NCBI RefSeq assembly: GCF_009659535.1
Contig: NZ_VJZZ01000023.1
Location: forward strand, 1 to 64,000
Reading direction: 5' to 3'
DNA length: 64,000 nt
From: Aggregicoccus sp. 17bor-14
GTDB taxonomy: Bacteria > Myxococcota > Myxococcia > Myxococcales > Myxococcaceae
The translations under genes and the position numbers were made by a program. Positions 44,053 to 52,225 of this stretch are shown here, in pieces; the stretch's first letter is position 1; each line of letters starts with the position of its first letter. Below the pieces are notes generated by a model. The model was not told the origin of the DNA. It searched no databases and saw only the letters and a program-made list of their open reading frames with translations.

Positions 44053-44289
44053 GGTGGCGGGTGGCATAGCAGCGGGGGCGCCGCCGCGTCGACAATCGCG
44101 CGGGGCCCCCACGCCTGCGCTGTCCGCCGCAGGCATTTGCAGCGCCCGTGCCGCACGCCGCTGCGGCCCTCCGGACACGGCCCCCGCCTGCCGCAGGGCA
44201 TCCGGGCAGGCGGGCGCTCCCTGACGGACGTCCCCGCTCGCCGTGCCTACCGTTCAGGCTTCGGGGGAGCTTCGGAGAGGGTGGCCCGG

Positions 44290-45177
44290 GTGATCCGCTT
44301 TGGACCAGCAGGCTGGAGCTACAAGGACTGGGACGGGGTCGTGTACCCCAAGCCCAAGCCGCGCGGCTTCGACCCGCTCGCCTTCCTTGCGGAGCACTTC
44401 GACGCGCTGGAGGTGAACAGCACCTTCTACCACCCGGCGAGCGTGAAGAGCGCCGAGGCCTGGCTCGAGCGCGTGGAGGGGCGGCCGGACTTCCGCTTCA
44501 CCGCGAAGCTGTGGAAGCGCTTCACCCACGAGCGCGACCAGGCGTGGACCACGGGCGAGGTGCGCCAGGCGCGCCACGCGCTGGACGTGCTGCACGAGGG
44601 CGGGCGGCTCGGCGCGGTGCTGGTGCAGTTCCCCTGGTCCTTCCGCCGCAACGACGCGAACCGCGACTGGCTGGACAACGTGCTCACCACCTTCGGCGAC
44701 CTGCCGCTGGTGCTCGAGGTGCGCCACGCCTCGTGGGCCGCGGCGGACTACTACGCGGAGCTCATCGAGCGCGGCATCGGCTTCGTGAACATCGACCAGC
44801 CGCTGTTCAGGAACTCCCTCGCGCCGAGCGCGCGCGCCACCTCGGCGGTGGGCTACGTGCGCGTGCACGGGCGCAACTACAAGGACTGGTTCCGCGAGAA
44901 GGCGAGCCCCGTGGAGCGCTACGACTACCTGTACAGCGCCGCGGAGCTGCTGCCCTGGGCGGAGCGCACGCGGGAGATCGCGAGCCACCCGCGCACCGAG
45001 GACGTGTACGTCATCACCAACAACCACTTCCGCGGCAAGGGCGTGGCGAACGCGATGATGCTGCAGTCGATGGTGACCGGGCAGCCCGCGCACCCGCCCG
45101 CCACGCTGCTGCGCGAGTACACCGCCGCGCTCGCGCCCTTCACGCAGCGCGGCGAGAGCGCCCCGGCCCTCAGCTGA
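44290..45177 (+). CDS. DUF72 (YecE-like) protein
   Basis: The 295-residue product starts with GTG at 44290 (VIRFGPAGWSYKDWDGVVYP). GGAGAG lies about 10 bases upstream, which favours it over the GTG at 44281. The family signature is complete: GPAGWSYKDW, EVNSTFYHPASVKSAEAW, FRFTAKLWKRFTHER, VLVQFPWSFRRN and VYVITNNHFRGKGVANAMML. These TIM-barrel proteins are widespread and conserved, but no biochemical activity is firmly known. The gene is divergent from the LpoA-like lipoprotein. Confidence 0.93.
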   Translation: MIRFGPAGWSYKDWDGVVYPKPKPRGFDPLAFLAEHFDALEVNSTFYHPASVKSAEAWLERVEGRPDFRFTAKLWKRFTHERDQAWTTGEVRQARHALDVLHEGGRLGAVLVQFPWSFRRNDANRDWLDNVLTTFGDLPLVLEVRHASWAAADYYAELIERGIGFVNIDQPLFRNSLAPSARATSAVGYVRVHGRNYKDWFREKASPVERYDYLYSAAELLPWAERTREIASHPRTEDVYVITNNHFRGKGVANAMMLQSMVTGQPAHPPATLLREYTAALAPFTQRGESAPALS

Positions 45178-45281
45178 CGCGCCGCGCCCATGCGGGCAGG
45201 CAGGCATCCGAGAGGTAGGACGCGTGCGCCCAAGGAACCACCGCGCGACGGGCGCGGGGCTTCCGGTAGTCTGCAGGTCCA

Positions 45282-48200
45282 ATGGCCGAAAAGCTGGGCG
45301 CGCTCCTGGTGCGCAAAGGACTCGTCTCCCCGAAACAGATCGAAGAGGCGCTGCAGGTGCAGCGCATCTACGGCGGACGGATCGGCACCAACCTCGTCGA
45401 GCTCGGCTACCTGTCGATCGAGGCGCTCGCGCAGGCCCTCGCGGAGCAGAGCCGCTACCCCAGCGCGAGCGAGGCGGACTTCGAGGCCGCGACCCCCGCC
45501 TGCACCGGCCTCATCACGGCGGAGCAGAGCGAGAAGCACGGCGCCTTCCCCATCGCGCTGGACGGGCGGCGCCTGCGCGTCGCGCTGCTGAGCCCCGACA
45601 TCGAGCACCTGGACGCGCTGGGCTTCATCACCGGGATGCGCATCATCCCGATGGTCGCGCCCGAGCTGCGCCTCTTCTTCCACCAGGAGCGCCGCTACGG
45701 CGTGTCGCGCGCCGCGCGCTACATCCGGCTCGCACCCGAGGCCGGCCACCCCCCCGCGCAGCACGTCGCGCCCGCGGCTCCTGCCGCGTCTGCCTCGAGC
45801 TCGGTGTTCGGCCAGCTCGGCGCGCACGAGTTCCTGAGCAGCGACGGCGAGGAGGATCCCTTCGCCCCGGCGCAGCCCAGCGCGCCGCCGCCGCCCCCGC
45901 CGCCGCGTCCGACGGGCGTGCACGCCGCCACCCCCGCGCCGTCGGCGCCGCGGCCCGCCGCGCCGCCTCCGCCCGCTGCAGCGCCGCCGCCTGCCGCGGC
46001 GCGGCCGCCGCCCTCGCTCACGCCGCAGGCGCCTCCCGTGCTCGCGCCGCAGTCGCCTCCGGTGCTGGGGGCTCCGCCTGCGCCGCAGCCGCCAGGCCCG
46101 CGGCCCACGGGCGTGCACGCCGCCATCCCGGCACTCGCGCCGCAGCCCCCGCCTGGCGCCGCCCCCCAGCGGCCCCCGCAGCCCGGCGCCGCGCCACCGC
46201 CGCTCGCGCCTCAGGGCCCTGCGCCGCGGCCGGGAAGCGCATCGCCGCCGGTCGCGCAGGGAGCCGCTCCGGCACAGGGCCCTGCAGCGCAGCACGGCCT
46301 CACGCCGCCGCACGGTGTGGCAGTGCCGCAGGGCCTCACGCCACAGCCGGGTGTTGCAGCACCGCACGGCTTCACGCCGCCGCACGGTGTCCCCGTACCG
46401 CAGGGCATCGTGCCCCCGCGCAGTCCTGCGCCGCAGCCGGGCCCTGCTGGGCAGCAGGGCGCCATGCCGCCGCCGGGCGCTGCACCGCAGCTGCGCCCCA
46501 CCCCGCCGCCAGGCGCCACGCCTCCGCCGGGCTTCGCACCCGCGACTGCGGGCACTCCGCCGCGCGCTGCTGCACCCCAGGGCGTCGCGCCCACGCCGGG
46601 CGCCGCACCGCAGCCTCCGCCGGGCGTGGCACCGCCCCCGGGCGCAGCGCCGCGTCCGCCGCAAGGGCCCGCGGTGGCGCAACCTCCGCCGGGCTCCGTG
46701 CCGCCGGGCGCCCAGCGGCCGCCCCCTCCCGGCCCCACCGCGCCGCAGCGCCCGGGGCCTCCCACGGGTGCGCCTGCAGCACCGGGCGCAGGTGCGATGC
46801 AGCCTCCGCGCAGCGGAGCACCCGCACCGATGGCCGCAGGTGCGCCTCCCGCGCCCATGCCGGGGACGGCTCAGCCTCCGTTGGCCCCTGCGGGTCCCGC
46901 GCGTGCAGCAGCGCCTGCGTCGCAGCCTTCGCCAGGTGCAGCGCCGCTCGGCCCGCCCGGCGCTCCGGCCGGAGCGCCGCCCCGCACCTCCACGGGTGAG
47001 CGGCCCGCCGCGGCCGGGGCCCCCACAGCTCCGCCCAGCGAGCCGTCCGGTGCGCCGCGCGTCTCCGGCGCCGCGAGCCCCGCTGTACCCGCAGCCACTG
47101 CGAAGGCACCCGCGGCCCCGCTCGCTTCGCCGGCGGGACAGGAGCGGGCCACCGGGGCCGCGTCCTCCGCTGCGCCGCCGAACGACCCGGGTGCAGGCGC
47201 GCCCGCCGCTCGCGCCAGTGCGCCCTCTGCTGCGGGAGCTGACGCCAGCGCCCCGCCGGCGCAGCCCCCCAGCGCATCGCTCCCCACCGCGGCAGCGCCG
47301 AGCAGCGCAGCGCCGCTCGCGGCCGAGCCCTCCACGCCGTCCGGCGCATCGCCTGCACCGCCGACCGCAGCGCCGGCCCCGTCTGCGCAGCCCCCTGCTG
47401 CGACCGCGCGCGGCGAGCAGGCGCCGTCCTCGACGCCTGCGTCCAACTCCGCGAGCGCCGCTCCGGCACCCCGCGAGACGCCTGCACCGGCCGCGAGCGC
47501 TGGGCCGCCCGAGGCTCCTGCACGCCCCACCTCGAACACCGCGACGACCGGGCCCGAGCTGCCCGCAGTCACGGCTGCGAGCACCGGGGCGACGGCGTCT
47601 GCGTCGCCTGCCGCCGCCACGGGTGAGGGTGCGCCGAGGCCCGAGGCGCCTTCCCCTGCCGCAACGAGCGCGGGGCCGGCGCCGTCGGAGTCGCCTGCAC
47701 CCGCCGCGGTGGGCGCAGCGCAGACGCAGACGGAGTCGGCTGCCTCCGCGGCCGCGAGCGCGGAGCCGATGGCGTCCTCGACGCCTGCCCCGGCGCTCGC
47801 GAGCGCCGGGTCGACGGCCTCCGAGGCGCCCGTCCCCGGGGGGACGCGCGCAGAGCCGACGGCGTCCGAGCTGCCCGCCGCCGTGGCGAGCGCAGCGCAG
47901 ACCTCGTCCGAGGCGCCCGCCGCGGTCCTGAGCGCCGCGCAGACCCTGTCGGAGCCGCCTGACGCCGCGGTGGCGCCCCTCGAGCCGATGGCGCGCGAGA
48001 CCGCTGCCTCGAGCGTGGTGCCAGCGCCTGGGGCACACGCCGCTGCCGCCTCCGCACCCGATGCGCCGGCGACGTCCGGGTCGAGCACCGCGAGCGAGCC
48101 CCCGCCCGCGCAGCCTGCGGAGGCCGTCGCGAGCACCGAGGCTGCGGCCTCCGCACAGCCTGCGCCCACCGCGGTGAGCGAGCCCGAGCGGCCCGCACGC

Positions 48201-49136
48201 GCGGGTGCACTGAGCCCGGAGCCCTCGGCGGTCGCATCCGGCACCACGCCCTCCCCCGCCCTGCCCTCCTCCGGCGCGCCCCCCTCCGCGCAGGGCACGG
48301 CCACGCGCGCCTCGAGCAGCACGCCCCCACGCCCGGCCGCGCAGACGGGCACGTCGGCACCGGCGAGCGCCACCTGGTCCGTGGCGGTGACGTGGAGCAG
48401 CGAGCGCAGTGCGCCGCCCGCGCCCGTGCCTCCGACTGCTTCCACGGTGGTGGTCGCGGTGCCGCTGCCGAGCGCGCCCAAGAGCCCGCCGCCCGCAGCA
48501 GCACCGCCTGCGCCCGCGCCGGCCACCGAGGAGCGCATTCCGCTCGCGGAGCCATGGGAGATGGCCCAGTGGCAGCCGGTGAGCGAGCCTGCAGCCCCCG
48601 GGGGCGCGGAGCCGCCGCTCGAGCTCGCCGAGGATCGCTGGCAGCTCGCCTCGGAGCCCGCGGCAGAGGGCGCCGCCTCGGCGCCCGGGCTGGAGCACGA
48701 CGACGCGCCGGTGCCCGTGGCCGCGGCGTGGGAGTTCATCCAGTGGCAGCAGCCCACGGCCGAGACACCGGCTCCTGCCGAGGAGCCCCTGGCGCTCGCG
48801 CAGCCGTGGGAGTACGCCGGCTGGCAGGCGCCGCCGGAGCCGCCGCCTCCCGAGGAGCAGGCCGCCGTGCTCGCGCAGCCGCTCGCGGAGGGCCCCTACG
48901 AGTCGCTCGCAGAGCCGCTCCCCACCGGAGCAGAGACCGCGCCGACCGAAGCCGCGCCGACCGAAGCCGCGCCGGCCGGAGTGGCCGCTGCCGAAGCCGC
49001 CGCACCGGACGCCGCGGCGGCCTCGAGCGAGGGCGCCTCGGACACCTCGCCCTACGGCCTGCGCACGCTGAGCGTGGAGGACGCGAAGGCGGAGCTCACG
49101 GGCGAGGAGCCTCCGAAGGACCCCGAGCCGTCCTGA
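45282..49136 (+). CDS. MshEN-like domain protein with giant proline/alanine-rich region
   Basis: This 1,284-residue protein starts at MAEKLGALLVRKGLVSPKQI. Residues 1-150 match the MshEN/GspE N-terminal domain (LGALLVRKGLVSPKQIEEAL, IGTNLVELGYLSIEALAQAL, FPIALDGRRLRVALL), which binds c-di-GMP in some ATPases, although no ATPase domain follows. Residues about 160-1085 are low-complexity Ala/Pro/Ser. Near the end, at 48544-48830, short repeats recur: LAEPWEMAQWQPV, VAAAWEFIQWQQP, LAQPWEYAGWQAP, and a weaker EDRWQLA. The last 50 residues are Ala/Glu-rich. A scaffold for secretion or motility machinery is a reasonable guess. Confidence 0.82.
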   Translation: MAEKLGALLVRKGLVSPKQIEEALQVQRIYGGRIGTNLVELGYLSIEALAQALAEQSRYPSASEADFEAATPACTGLITAEQSEKHGAFPIALDGRRLRVALLSPDIEHLDALGFITGMRIIPMVAPELRLFFHQERRYGVSRAARYIRLAPEAGHPPAQHVAPAAPAASASSSVFGQLGAHEFLSSDGEEDPFAPAQPSAPPPPPPPRPTGVHAATPAPSAPRPAAPPPPAAAPPPAAARPPPSLTPQAPPVLAPQSPPVLGAPPAPQPPGPRPTGVHAAIPALAPQPPPGAAPQRPPQPGAAPPPLAPQGPAPRPGSASPPVAQGAAPAQGPAAQHGLTPPHGVAVPQGLTPQPGVAAPHGFTPPHGVPVPQGIVPPRSPAPQPGPAGQQGAMPPPGAAPQLRPTPPPGATPPPGFAPATAGTPPRAAAPQGVAPTPGAAPQPPPGVAPPPGAAPRPPQGPAVAQPPPGSVPPGAQRPPPPGPTAPQRPGPPTGAPAAPGAGAMQPPRSGAPAPMAAGAPPAPMPGTAQPPLAPAGPARAAAPASQPSPGAAPLGPPGAPAGAPPRTSTGERPAAAGAPTAPPSEPSGAPRVSGAASPAVPAATAKAPAAPLASPAGQERATGAASSAAPPNDPGAGAPAARASAPSAAGADASAPPAQPPSASLPTAAAPSSAAPLAAEPSTPSGASPAPPTAAPAPSAQPPAATARGEQAPSSTPASNSASAAPAPRETPAPAASAGPPEAPARPTSNTATTGPELPAVTAASTGATASASPAAATGEGAPRPEAPSPAATSAGPAPSESPAPAAVGAAQTQTESAASAAASAEPMASSTPAPALASAGSTASEAPVPGGTRAEPTASELPAAVASAAQTSSEAPAAVLSAAQTLSEPPDAAVAPLEPMARETAASSVVPAPGAHAAAASAPDAPATSGSSTASEPPPAQPAEAVASTEAAASAQPAPTAVSEPERPARAGALSPEPSAVASGTTPSPALPSSGAPPSAQGTATRASSSTPPRPAAQTGTSAPASATWSVAVTWSSERSAPPAPVPPTASTVVVAVPLPSAPKSPPPAAAPPAPAPATEERIPLAEPWEMAQWQPVSEPAAPGGAEPPLELAEDRWQLASEPAAEGAASAPGLEHDDAPVPVAAAWEFIQWQQPTAETPAPAEEPLALAQPWEYAGWQAPPEPPPPEEQAAVLAQPLAEGPYESLAEPLPTGAETAPTEAAPTEAAPAGVAAAEAAAPDAAAASSEGASDTSPYGLRTLSVEDAKAELTGEEPPKDPEPS

Positions 49137-49169: not shown

Positions 49170-52103
49170 TCAGGCCTTGCCGATGACCTTCTTGAGGAAG
49201 CCCCAGAAGCGCCCGCCGCGCTCCTTGAGCTCCTCGGCGCGCTTGTTCTCGGCGGCCGTCACCGCCTCGCCGCTGAACTTCAGCTGCTTCTGCAGCTCCT
49301 CGGGGCTGTAGCGCGTGGCGAGGCTGGCCTTCACCTCCTTGCGCGTGGACAGCTCGCGCGCCTCCACGTGCAGCACGCACTCCGAGTCCAGCTTGAGGGT
49401 GACGGCGACCTTCACGGTGCCGCGCGGCGCGCGCGGCAGGCCCTCCATGCGCACGGTGCCCAGGTACTCGTTGCCGGCGACGTGCGTGTCCTCGCCCTGG
49501 AAGACGGAGAACTCGAGCACGGTCTCGTCGTCCACCTGGGTGGCGATGGAGAAGGAGCGCTGGGCGGGCAGCGGGGTGTTGCGCTCGATGACGCGCTTGA
49601 AGCCGCCGCCGGGCAGGCCCACGCCCACGGTCATGGGCAGCACGTCGATGAGCACCACGCTGCTCACCTTGTCCACGCTGCCCGAGTAGAGCGCGGCGCC
49701 CAGCGCCACGGCCTCGTCCGCGTTCACGCTGGCCTGCGGGCTCTTGCCGAACACCGTCTTGAGGGCCTCGCGCACCATGAGCATGCGGCTCATGCCGCCC
49801 ACCAGGATGACGTCGTCGATCTCCGAGGGCTTGAGCTTCGCGTCCAGCAGCACGTCGCGCACCACGTCCAGCGAGCGGGCGACGAGGCCGCGGCACACCT
49901 CGTTGAGCTCCTCGCGGGTGACGGTGCAGCGCAGGTCGCGCGGGGCGCCGCCGGCGGGGTCCATCATCAGCATGGGGATGTGCACGTCCGTGCTGGTGCG
50001 CTCGCTGAGCGCCATCTTCGCGCGCTCGGCGGCGTCGGTGACGCGGCTGAGCGCGATGCTGTCGCCCTGGAAGGGGACCTTCTGGTCCTGCTCGAAGCGC
50101 TTGAGCAGGTAGTCGACGATGAGGTTGTCGAAGTCCACGCCGCCCAGGAAGGTGTCGCCGCCGGTGGCGAGCACCTCGAAGACGTTCTGCTCGATGCGCA
50201 GCACCGTGGCGTCGAAGGTACCGCCGCCCAGGTCGTAGACGAGCACCTTCTTGGAGAGCTCGCGGTTGAGGCCGTAGGCGAGCGCGGCCGCAGTGGGCTC
50301 GTTGAGGATGCGCTCCACCTTGAGGCCGGCGAGCGCGCCCGCCTTGCGCACCGCCTCGCGCTGCGGCTCGGAGTAGTAGGCGGGCACGGTGACCACCGCG
50401 CGCTCCACCTTCTGGTTGAGGTGCTGCTCGGCCATCTCCTTGCACTCGCGCAGGATGAGGCCCTGCACCTCCTCGAGGCTGAGCACGTGCTGGCGCAGCC
50501 GCACGGCGGCGCGGCCGCTCGCGTCCGGGCAGATCTCGTAGTGGAAGCGCTCGCGCACCTCCTTCACCGTGGCGCTCTCGTACGGGCGGCCCACCAGGCG
50601 CTTCGCGCCGTGGATGGTGTGGTTCGGGTTGAGCAGCAGCTGGCTCTTGGCGCGGTGGCTCACCATCAGCTTGCCCTGCGCGGTGAGGCTCACCACCGAG
50701 GGGATGGTGTTGTAGCCGTCCTTCGAGCGCAGCACCGTGGGGCGGCCGCCGCCGAGGATGGCCACGCACGAGTTGGTGGTGCCCAGGTCGATGCCGATGA
50801 CCGGCCCCACCCCGGCGATGCTCGCGGGCGGCTGCAGGAACACCGTGGGCACGCTGCCGTCCGCGCGCAGCGGGGGCGGCGGCGCAGGGGCCGGGGCGGG
50901 CGCCGCGGGCGCGAGCACCGTGGGGGCCACGGTGGGCACCGCGGAGGCGCCGGGGCGCGGCGCCTCGCGGCGGATGGAGGGCAGCGCGCCGGCCGCACCC
51001 GGCGCAGGCGTGGCGCGATGGGGGCGCGCGGGCGGCGGCGGGGGCGGAGCGCGCTTGCCGGGGCGCTCGTCGAGGTCCAGCTCCAGCGGGGCGTCCTCGT
51101 TGAGGCCGTCGAGGTCGAACTCCACCAGCCCGCTGGGGCCCGCCTTGGCCGCGGGCGCTGCGGCGGGCGCGCCGGCTCCCGCGAGCTCCAGCTCCAGGGC
51201 GCTCTCGGCGTCGGGCTCGGCATCGGGCTCCAGATTGAAGTCCGGCAGCGGCACCTCGGCGCCGCTCAGGTCCAGCTCCAGCTCCAGCGGGCCGCTCTCT
51301 GCCAGCTCGTCGTGCGGGGCGGCGGACGGGGGCGGCGTGGAGGCGATCAGCTCCTCGAGCGGGATGTCCACCGTGTTGGGCGAAGCAGGCGCGAAGTCCT
51401 CGAGCTCGAAGGCCGGCGCGCTCGGCGCGGGCGGCGGGCTCGCGAACAGGTCCTCCTCGCCGAAGAGGTCCGCGAGCTCCGCGTCCGGCTTCGGCGTGGG
51501 CGGCGGCGCGGGGCGCAGCGCGGCGGCGGCCGGACGCGCCGGGGCCTTCACCGGAGCCACGGCCGGAGCGACGACCGGAGCTACGGCAGGAGCCACCCCG
51601 GGAGCCGCGAGGGGCGTGAGCGGCGCGATGCCCGGCAGCGGCGCGATGCCGGGCACGCGCGGCGGCGGCGTGGGGGTGGCGCTGGAGGAGGCGGCAGGCG
51701 CGCCGTAGCGCGCCTTGAGCTCGGCCTCGAGCGAGGCGGCGTCGAGGGGTTCGGGCTCGAGCTCGCTCTCGGAGCGCTGCGCGAGCATGCGATCGATGAG
51801 CGTGCGCGTGGCGTCGTCCACCTCGGTGAACTGCACGCCCATGCCGGGCGCGCCCGCGAGGTCGCCCACCTGGCGCGTCCAGCGCACCACCGCCAGGCCG
51901 CGCATCACGCGCACGCCGCCGGCGATCTGCACCTCGAAGCGCACCGGCGTGCCCACCGGCTGCGGCTGCCGCGAGCGGATGAACATGCCGCCGGGGCTCA
52001 GGTTGACGGCGAACTCCTGCGCAAAGGTGCCCACGTCCGGGTGCTTCAGCTGGACGAGGAGGCCAACGGCTTTGCGGTCTGTCTTGCGGTTGCCTGGATC
52101 CAC
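49170..52103 (-). CDS. PilZ-Hsp70 fusion protein
   Basis: The 977-residue product starts with GTG at 52103 (VDPGNRKTDRKAVGLLVQLK); upstream in-frame starts exist but extend into atypical sequence. Residues 1-110 form a PilZ-type domain (RKTDRKAV, FAVNLSPGGMFIRSRQPQPV, GMGVQFTEVD). Residues about 110-430 are an acidic, Pro/Ala-rich linker with ELEDF- and DLDL-like patches. From about 434 a full Hsp70 follows: VIGIDLGTTNSCVAILGGG, KRLVGRPYES, VVTVPAYYSEPQREAVRKAG, LVYDLGGGTFDATVL and ILVGGMSRMLMVREAL, then a substrate-binding domain of about 175 residues. The final helical lid is short. A c-di-GMP-responsive chaperone is an attractive inference. Confidence 0.92.
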   Translation of the reverse strand: MDPGNRKTDRKAVGLLVQLKHPDVGTFAQEFAVNLSPGGMFIRSRQPQPVGTPVRFEVQIAGGVRVMRGLAVVRWTRQVGDLAGAPGMGVQFTEVDDATRTLIDRMLAQRSESELEPEPLDAASLEAELKARYGAPAASSSATPTPPPRVPGIAPLPGIAPLTPLAAPGVAPAVAPVVAPAVAPVKAPARPAAAALRPAPPPTPKPDAELADLFGEEDLFASPPPAPSAPAFELEDFAPASPNTVDIPLEELIASTPPPSAAPHDELAESGPLELELDLSGAEVPLPDFNLEPDAEPDAESALELELAGAGAPAAAPAAKAGPSGLVEFDLDGLNEDAPLELDLDERPGKRAPPPPPPARPHRATPAPGAAGALPSIRREAPRPGASAVPTVAPTVLAPAAPAPAPAPPPPLRADGSVPTVFLQPPASIAGVGPVIGIDLGTTNSCVAILGGGRPTVLRSKDGYNTIPSVVSLTAQGKLMVSHRAKSQLLLNPNHTIHGAKRLVGRPYESATVKEVRERFHYEICPDASGRAAVRLRQHVLSLEEVQGLILRECKEMAEQHLNQKVERAVVTVPAYYSEPQREAVRKAGALAGLKVERILNEPTAAALAYGLNRELSKKVLVYDLGGGTFDATVLRIEQNVFEVLATGGDTFLGGVDFDNLIVDYLLKRFEQDQKVPFQGDSIALSRVTDAAERAKMALSERTSTDVHIPMLMMDPAGGAPRDLRCTVTREELNEVCRGLVARSLDVVRDVLLDAKLKPSEIDDVILVGGMSRMLMVREALKTVFGKSPQASVNADEAVALGAALYSGSVDKVSSVVLIDVLPMTVGVGLPGGGFKRVIERNTPLPAQRSFSIATQVDDETVLEFSVFQGEDTHVAGNEYLGTVRMEGLPRAPRGTVKVAVTLKLDSECVLHVEARELSTRKEVKASLATRYSPEELQKQLKFSGEAVTAAENKRAEELKERGGRFWGFLKKVIGKA

Positions 52104-52225
52104 GGCGCTGGAACTTATCCGGCTTGGCGCACGAAGACCCGCCCCGATTCTCGGGCCCCACTGCCTGCACGGCAGGCGGGCGCGCCACACCTACACGCTG
52201 CCACCCGGGCGCCCCGCGGCGCGGC

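Follow-up and report, generated by a model that had tools for sequence, protein, structure and literature searches.

At 45282..49136 on the + strand, the 64,000-nucleotide stretch of Aggregicoccus sp. 17bor-14 analysed here (contig NZ_VJZZ01000023.1, positions 1 to 64,000; hereafter the window) encodes a protein of 1284 amino acids (aa), opened by an ATG start codon that is kept in orthologues, in which an N-terminal MshEN head is followed by an extended Pro/Ala-rich body, a cluster of tryptophan motifs and an acidic tail. A sequence-only reading of this gene had described the same succession of head, body and repeats, which is confirmed here with a body of ~880 aa and three full plus one partial repeat. 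A Pfam scan of all 1284 aa identified MshEN as the only domain, with no T2SSE ATPase domain with Walker motifs found; no membrane span is evident in the protein, the top 19-residue hydropathy (1.18) lying within the head. The body (aa 201–1080; 45882..48521, +), presumed to be a disordered tether, is of low complexity, with Ala and Pro at 55%, A/P/G/S/T at 80% and 4 aromatics per 880 residues, and is genuinely coding, because orthologues keep the same frame open between conserved sequence on either flank. Long antisense open reading frames (ORFs) over the gene (e.g. 44925–48698, −) were dismissed as GC-rich by-products, since it is the + frame that bears the conserved domain and motifs. Consensus scans gave no promoter or terminator match, such a scan being uninformative at 72% GC.

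The head carries the signatures of a cyclic di-GMP (c-di-GMP) sensor. Residues 59–142 (45456..45707, +), the C-terminal subdomain in the structure model, match Pfam MshEN (PF05157) at 40.2 bits (cut-off 23.1), and residues 4–56 match NCBIfam NF053729 ‘c-di-GMP_motif’ at 59.9 bits (cut-off 38). The AlphaFold2 model of the head (predicted local distance difference test, pLDDT, 91) shows the MshEN fold, a four-helix N-subdomain with an alpha/beta C-subdomain; among PDB entries it agrees best with V. cholerae MshE bound to c-di-GMP (5htl), and the fold also matches PilF GSPII-B complexes with c-di-GMP. The published ligand motif, RLGxx(L/V/I)(L/V/I)xxG(L/V/I)(L/V/I)xxxxLxxxLxxQ, occurs in two copies with a 5-residue spacer (PMC5013675). 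By NF053729 and the residue table, both copies are intact in the window head (KLG...Q / RIG...Q): motif I is KLGALLVRKGLVSPKQIEEALQVQ (aa 4–27; 45291..45362, +), with K at position 1, G6, G13 and Q27, and motif II is RIGTNLVELGYLSIEALAQALAEQ (aa 33–56; 45378..45449, +), with R33, G35, G42 and Q56, the two being separated by the spacer RIYGG (aa 28–32) and deviating from the consensus at K4, and at I20 and I34 for Leu. Lysine at motif position 1 is accepted in an extended R/K/L consensus, with KD values of 13.5 and 53 nM for MshEN domains that carry it (PMC11731258); in a reconstructed PilF GSPII-A domain, binding was abolished when Ser took the place of the Arg that opens motif II (PMC12002112). 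Because both motifs are present and the Lys falls within the extended consensus with high affinity, the window head is predicted to bind c-di-GMP, a prediction well supported by its residues. Across orthologues the ligand residues erode stepwise, and the window copy retains them better than many relatives.

An orthologous head, at 47–62% identity, is present in about 60 of 96 Myxococcaceae genomes, and most genomes give a second, paralogous match that is distinctly weaker, at 37–45% identity. Orthologue lengths compared across relatives range from 594 to 2492 aa, identifying the low-complexity body as the variable part. Most orthologues end in a ~150-aa domain with a weak Pfam GAF match and a confident fold that matches solved GAF structures; this domain was found in 16 of 19 full-length orthologues from distinct genomes (L044, L052 and L053 being without it), and is absent from the window protein, where the acidic tail (aa 1191–1284; 48852..49133, +) stands in its place. 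A GAF profile search detected no detached GAF in the window genome, with no positive control inside that search. The sequence-only reading had located the peculiarity of the protein in an ATPase ‘missing and replaced’: the absence of T2SSE holds, yet it is not unusual, because 8 of the 11 MshEN proteins of the window genome lack the ATPase (3 carry T2SSE), and what sets the protein apart from its orthologues is instead the missing C-terminal GAF domain. In a tree of the class II ribonucleotide reductase (RNR) encoded beside the gene in relatives, the window genome joins the Archangium group, which has GAF, and not the GAF-less Hyalangium group (support 98/97); this suggests that GAF was lost twice separately. 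The GAF-less Hyalangium-group orthologues L052 and L053 carry several (T/S)(T/G)xKYG(I/T) peptides in the GAF position (C-terminal 250 aa), and L052 has ~12 acidic tandem repeats of APELSVEEVSAD type; in a further locus, L062 (G059:C1), the orthologue head start and body lie in different frames, by sequencing error or in a broken gene.

Full W-E-x-x-x-W-Q copies occur three times in the window protein, at W1092, W1150 and W1176, with a partial copy at W1120; in order, the repeats are IPLAEPWEMAQWQP (aa 1086–1099; 48537..48578, +), the partial PLELAEDRWQLASEP (aa 1112–1126; 48615..48659, +), VPVAAAWEFIQWQQP (aa 1144–1158; 48711..48755, +) and PLALAQPWEYAGWQAP (aa 1169–1184; 48786..48833, +). 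Shuffled 20,000 times, the whole protein never held two or more copies, and the C-terminal 265 aa, also shuffled 20,000 times, held two copies once and three never. The motif is conserved in the orthologues, kept in 14 of 16 aligned, with a consensus near the C-terminus, LAxxW(E/D)(F/Y/M)xxWQ, that the window protein fits; the order in orthologues is LASTWEFVGWQG, then ETTWADRxVDL, then LASAWDFIQQPWQP, in a stretch modelled at pLDDT <50 directly before the GAF domain, and conservation inside a region of such low pLDDT is the signature of a short linear motif. In the window protein, despite the absence of GAF, the motifs are not eroded but more numerous. A protein search with the C-terminal 214 aa in 60 relatives returned the self match alone, because the sequence is too diverged and of low complexity, and the conservation became visible when the extracted orthologues were aligned.

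The sequence-only reading had suggested that the WE/WQ repeats may bind a partner and had proposed looking for them in other proteins. When 92 genomes were scanned with a DNA pattern encoding WE(F/Y)xxWQ and one further constrained residue, 44 matches came up, never more than one in a genome. Of these, 35 belong to this gene, in line with an orthologue head and no more than 8 kb downstream of it; 5 lie on contigs of fragmented assemblies with the head elsewhere or missing, and 4 are unrelated. With matches essentially confined to the family, the repeat is not common to other proteins of these genomes, unlike a general docking peptide. A further short peptide, MFGGLAPGQFLSDD, follows the head in most orthologues, its window version being VFGQLGAHEFLSSDGEED (aa 175–192; 45804..45857, +); no peptide of the MFGGLAPGQFLSDD type was found in the Archangium group.

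In relatives with enough flanking sequence, a glycosyltransferase, a sugar transferase and the MshEN gene lie on one strand, followed by the convergent RNR gene, with an O-antigen ligase gene and LptF/G upstream. The sugar transferase combines PF13727 and PF02397, scoring above the cut-off of the WcaJ-type TIGR03023 in a Myxococcus relative, and is separated from the MshEN gene by 60–225 bp in many genomes and 0.6–2.9 kb in others. The upstream region of a Myxococcus relative also encodes a sigma-region-4-like protein, which we take to be AsgB. Published numbers are MXAN_2913 for asgB and MXAN_2922 for sgmK (PMC4320627). Together with gene order, these numbers suggest that the neighbouring transferase is MXAN_2922, which would make it WbaP of O-antigen synthesis. 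The window genome retains the transferase (75% identical) and RNR (84%) on another contig, C1, 2 kb apart and with no MshEN gene between them; the slot (L131, 5203–7213) is occupied by an ORF of 484 aa resembling a membrane glycosyltransferase (weak PMT_2) and by a GNAT acetyltransferase. The window copy is thus found away from the usual locus, which its own genome keeps without it.

MshEN combined with many partner domains has been described (PMC5013675), and among the MshEN proteins of the window genome that lack T2SSE, some have a protein kinase or HEAT repeats and some have no partner domain that could be recognised; they include L072 1631–4456 (−), a non-ATPase protein of ~940 aa with HEAT-like repeats near the C-terminus, and L067 2231–4891 (+), with a Ser/Thr kinase domain ahead of MshEN. 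The window protein resembles MshE, PilF GSPII-B and PilB in its domain, its two 24-residue motifs and its predicted fold, and differs in having no ATPase and in the long low-complexity tether, equipped with Trp motifs, that is attached to its head. A further comparison is with E. coli NfrB, a c-di-GMP-controlled glycosyltransferase with an MshEN domain (PMC8669469), in which MshEN likewise stands outside a pilus or secretion ATPase and serves polysaccharide synthesis, although there the two parts are fused, whereas in the relatives the transferase is a separate neighbouring gene and in the window it is not adjacent. M. xanthus EpsW, which activates the priming transferase EpsZ (PMC12802240), is similarly a cytoplasmic regulator encoded near a priming phosphoglycosyl transferase of the same enzyme family; EpsW, however, is a single receiver domain, and any such interaction in the present family is hypothetical. 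Within the window genome, a paralogue on contig C8 shares the domain order of the orthologues (MshEN, short Pro/Ala linker, GAF-like domain), its C-terminal part and the GAF of an orthologue sharing 27% identity (E 5e-9), but its linker is ~130 aa, it has no Trp motifs and it occurs in more genera than the window-protein family.

The c-di-GMP-responsive scaffold put forward from the sequence is still the best reading, surviving only in modified form, as a tethered adaptor ancestrally linked to surface polysaccharide, which we favour tentatively and with slightly less than even confidence. Its MshEN head would bind one c-di-GMP via the two motifs, the very long flexible tether would hold this sensor away from the Trp-motif cluster and give it reach, and the Trp motifs would dock in trans on a partner protein. 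The ancestral gene would have lain in a surface-polysaccharide locus (WcaJ/WbaP-type priming transferase, O-antigen ligase, LptF/G) and carried a C-terminal GAF; given that locus and domain, the likeliest ancestral role is the tuning of an early polysaccharide (probably O-antigen) step by c-di-GMP together with a signal sensed through GAF. Gene order in relatives and the NfrB and EpsW–EpsZ precedents suggest control of such a step, and since relatives adjoin surface-polysaccharide genes, the protein may tie the c-di-GMP signal to the cell surface. The window copy would have left the locus and lost GAF; it still has the head and the FGxL...FLSSD peptide, its Trp motifs have grown in number, and its target may have changed. 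In this account, computation shows the fold and motif residues of the head, the conservation of the two short motifs, the missing GAF and the gene's absence from the usual locus, whereas ligand binding, a disordered body, Trp-motif docking, the partner's identity and the polysaccharide link are inferred.

Several observations weigh against this account. The ligand contact Gln56 is replaced by Met in the M. xanthus group and by Leu in the Corallococcus group, and the Archangium group and its relatives have changes at K4, R33 and Q56 alike; alignment thus upheld the full set of ligand residues in the window protein but not across the family, and with contacts replaced in several groups, c-di-GMP binding cannot be the essential function of the whole family. 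The window copy does not lie in the polysaccharide locus, and the neighbourhood seen in relatives, conserved in one bacterial family only, may reflect inertia. In the gene tree, moreover, the branch of the window head is unresolved and long (0.57 vs a median of 0.051), which allows for loss or change of function in this copy.

That branch, the absent GAF and a position off the conserved locus are what would be expected of a decaying relic, left functionless by relocation and GAF loss and now drifting, yet the frame is open for 1284 codons, the ligand residues are better kept than in many relatives, the FGxL...FLSSD peptide is retained and the Trp motifs have increased rather than eroded, so that decay appears unlikely. 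Unlikely, too, is sticker-and-spacer clustering, in which the Trp motifs would bind each other or several partner copies across a Pro/Ala spacer, c-di-GMP tuning the clusters or condensates: aromatic stickers are gathered at one end of a body nearly free of aromatics, and body length varies hugely while both ends are kept, but the stickers number only 3–4 and are conserved in sequence and not in composition alone, as would be expected of specific docking more than of generic stickiness.

The Trp motifs might instead act in cis, folding back on their own MshEN (or on GAF in relatives) as an autoinhibitory latch released by ligand. Their position directly before GAF in relatives agrees with this, as does the one correlated event on record, the Archangium group having both lost the ligand residues and degraded motif 1. 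However, three full copies and one partial copy persist in the window protein without GAF, so that serving GAF as a dock in cis cannot be their whole role, and they persist in the M. xanthus and Corallococcus groups despite the changed Gln56, which argues that docking can do without complete ligand binding; a latch is distinctly unlikely. Pairing of the head with the PilZ–HSP70 protein encoded by the adjacent convergent gene (49170..52190, −; PilZ of TIGR02266, a linker and an HSP70/DnaK-like part), in the manner of the PilB N-terminal domain with PilZ in Xanthomonas, is very improbable: PilB–PilZ complexes are among the structural matches of the head (7lko), but the two genes, being convergent, are not co-transcribed, and they are not adjacent in the relatives examined.

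Returning to the tethered adaptor, M. xanthus encodes 17 (PMC8844925) or up to 22 (PMC5013675) MshEN proteins; c-di-GMP binding is reported as unknown even for PilB and MXAN_7500 (PMC8844925), and no paper was found in the literature giving a non-ATPase MshEN member a role. A bolder proposal, which we regard as doubtful, is that the family constitutes an undescribed Myxococcaceae-specific effector class, in which MshEN on a ~1000-residue disordered tether would dock via private Trp motifs on the initiation machinery of O-antigen or a related surface polysaccharide, c-di-GMP directly controlling that step post-translationally, with the window lineage re-targeted after its move and GAF loss. As the family is defined, shares a private motif that is conserved, and is tied by its genomic setting to a probable O-antigen locus, direct c-di-GMP action on surface-polysaccharide initiation in myxobacteria becomes a testable question, as does the contribution of giant low-complexity tethers.

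Upstream of the gene lies a DUF72 protein (44287..45177, +), which, like the convergent PilZ–HSP70 protein, is treated here as a neighbour rather than as part of the system. None of the window neighbours LppC, DUF72 and PilZ–HSP70 showed synteny at ~40 orthologue loci, nor was DUF72 or LppC found around PilZ–HSP70 in two relatives; with no conserved synteny among the neighbours, the new gene position could not be matched to a clean empty site. Relatives of both the PilZ and HSP70 parts stand side by side in L139 and L140. In the PilZ–HSP70 protein itself, RKTDR and NLSPGG resemble the ligand motifs RxxxR and (D/N)xSxxG, and the linker is acidic and Pro/Ala-rich.

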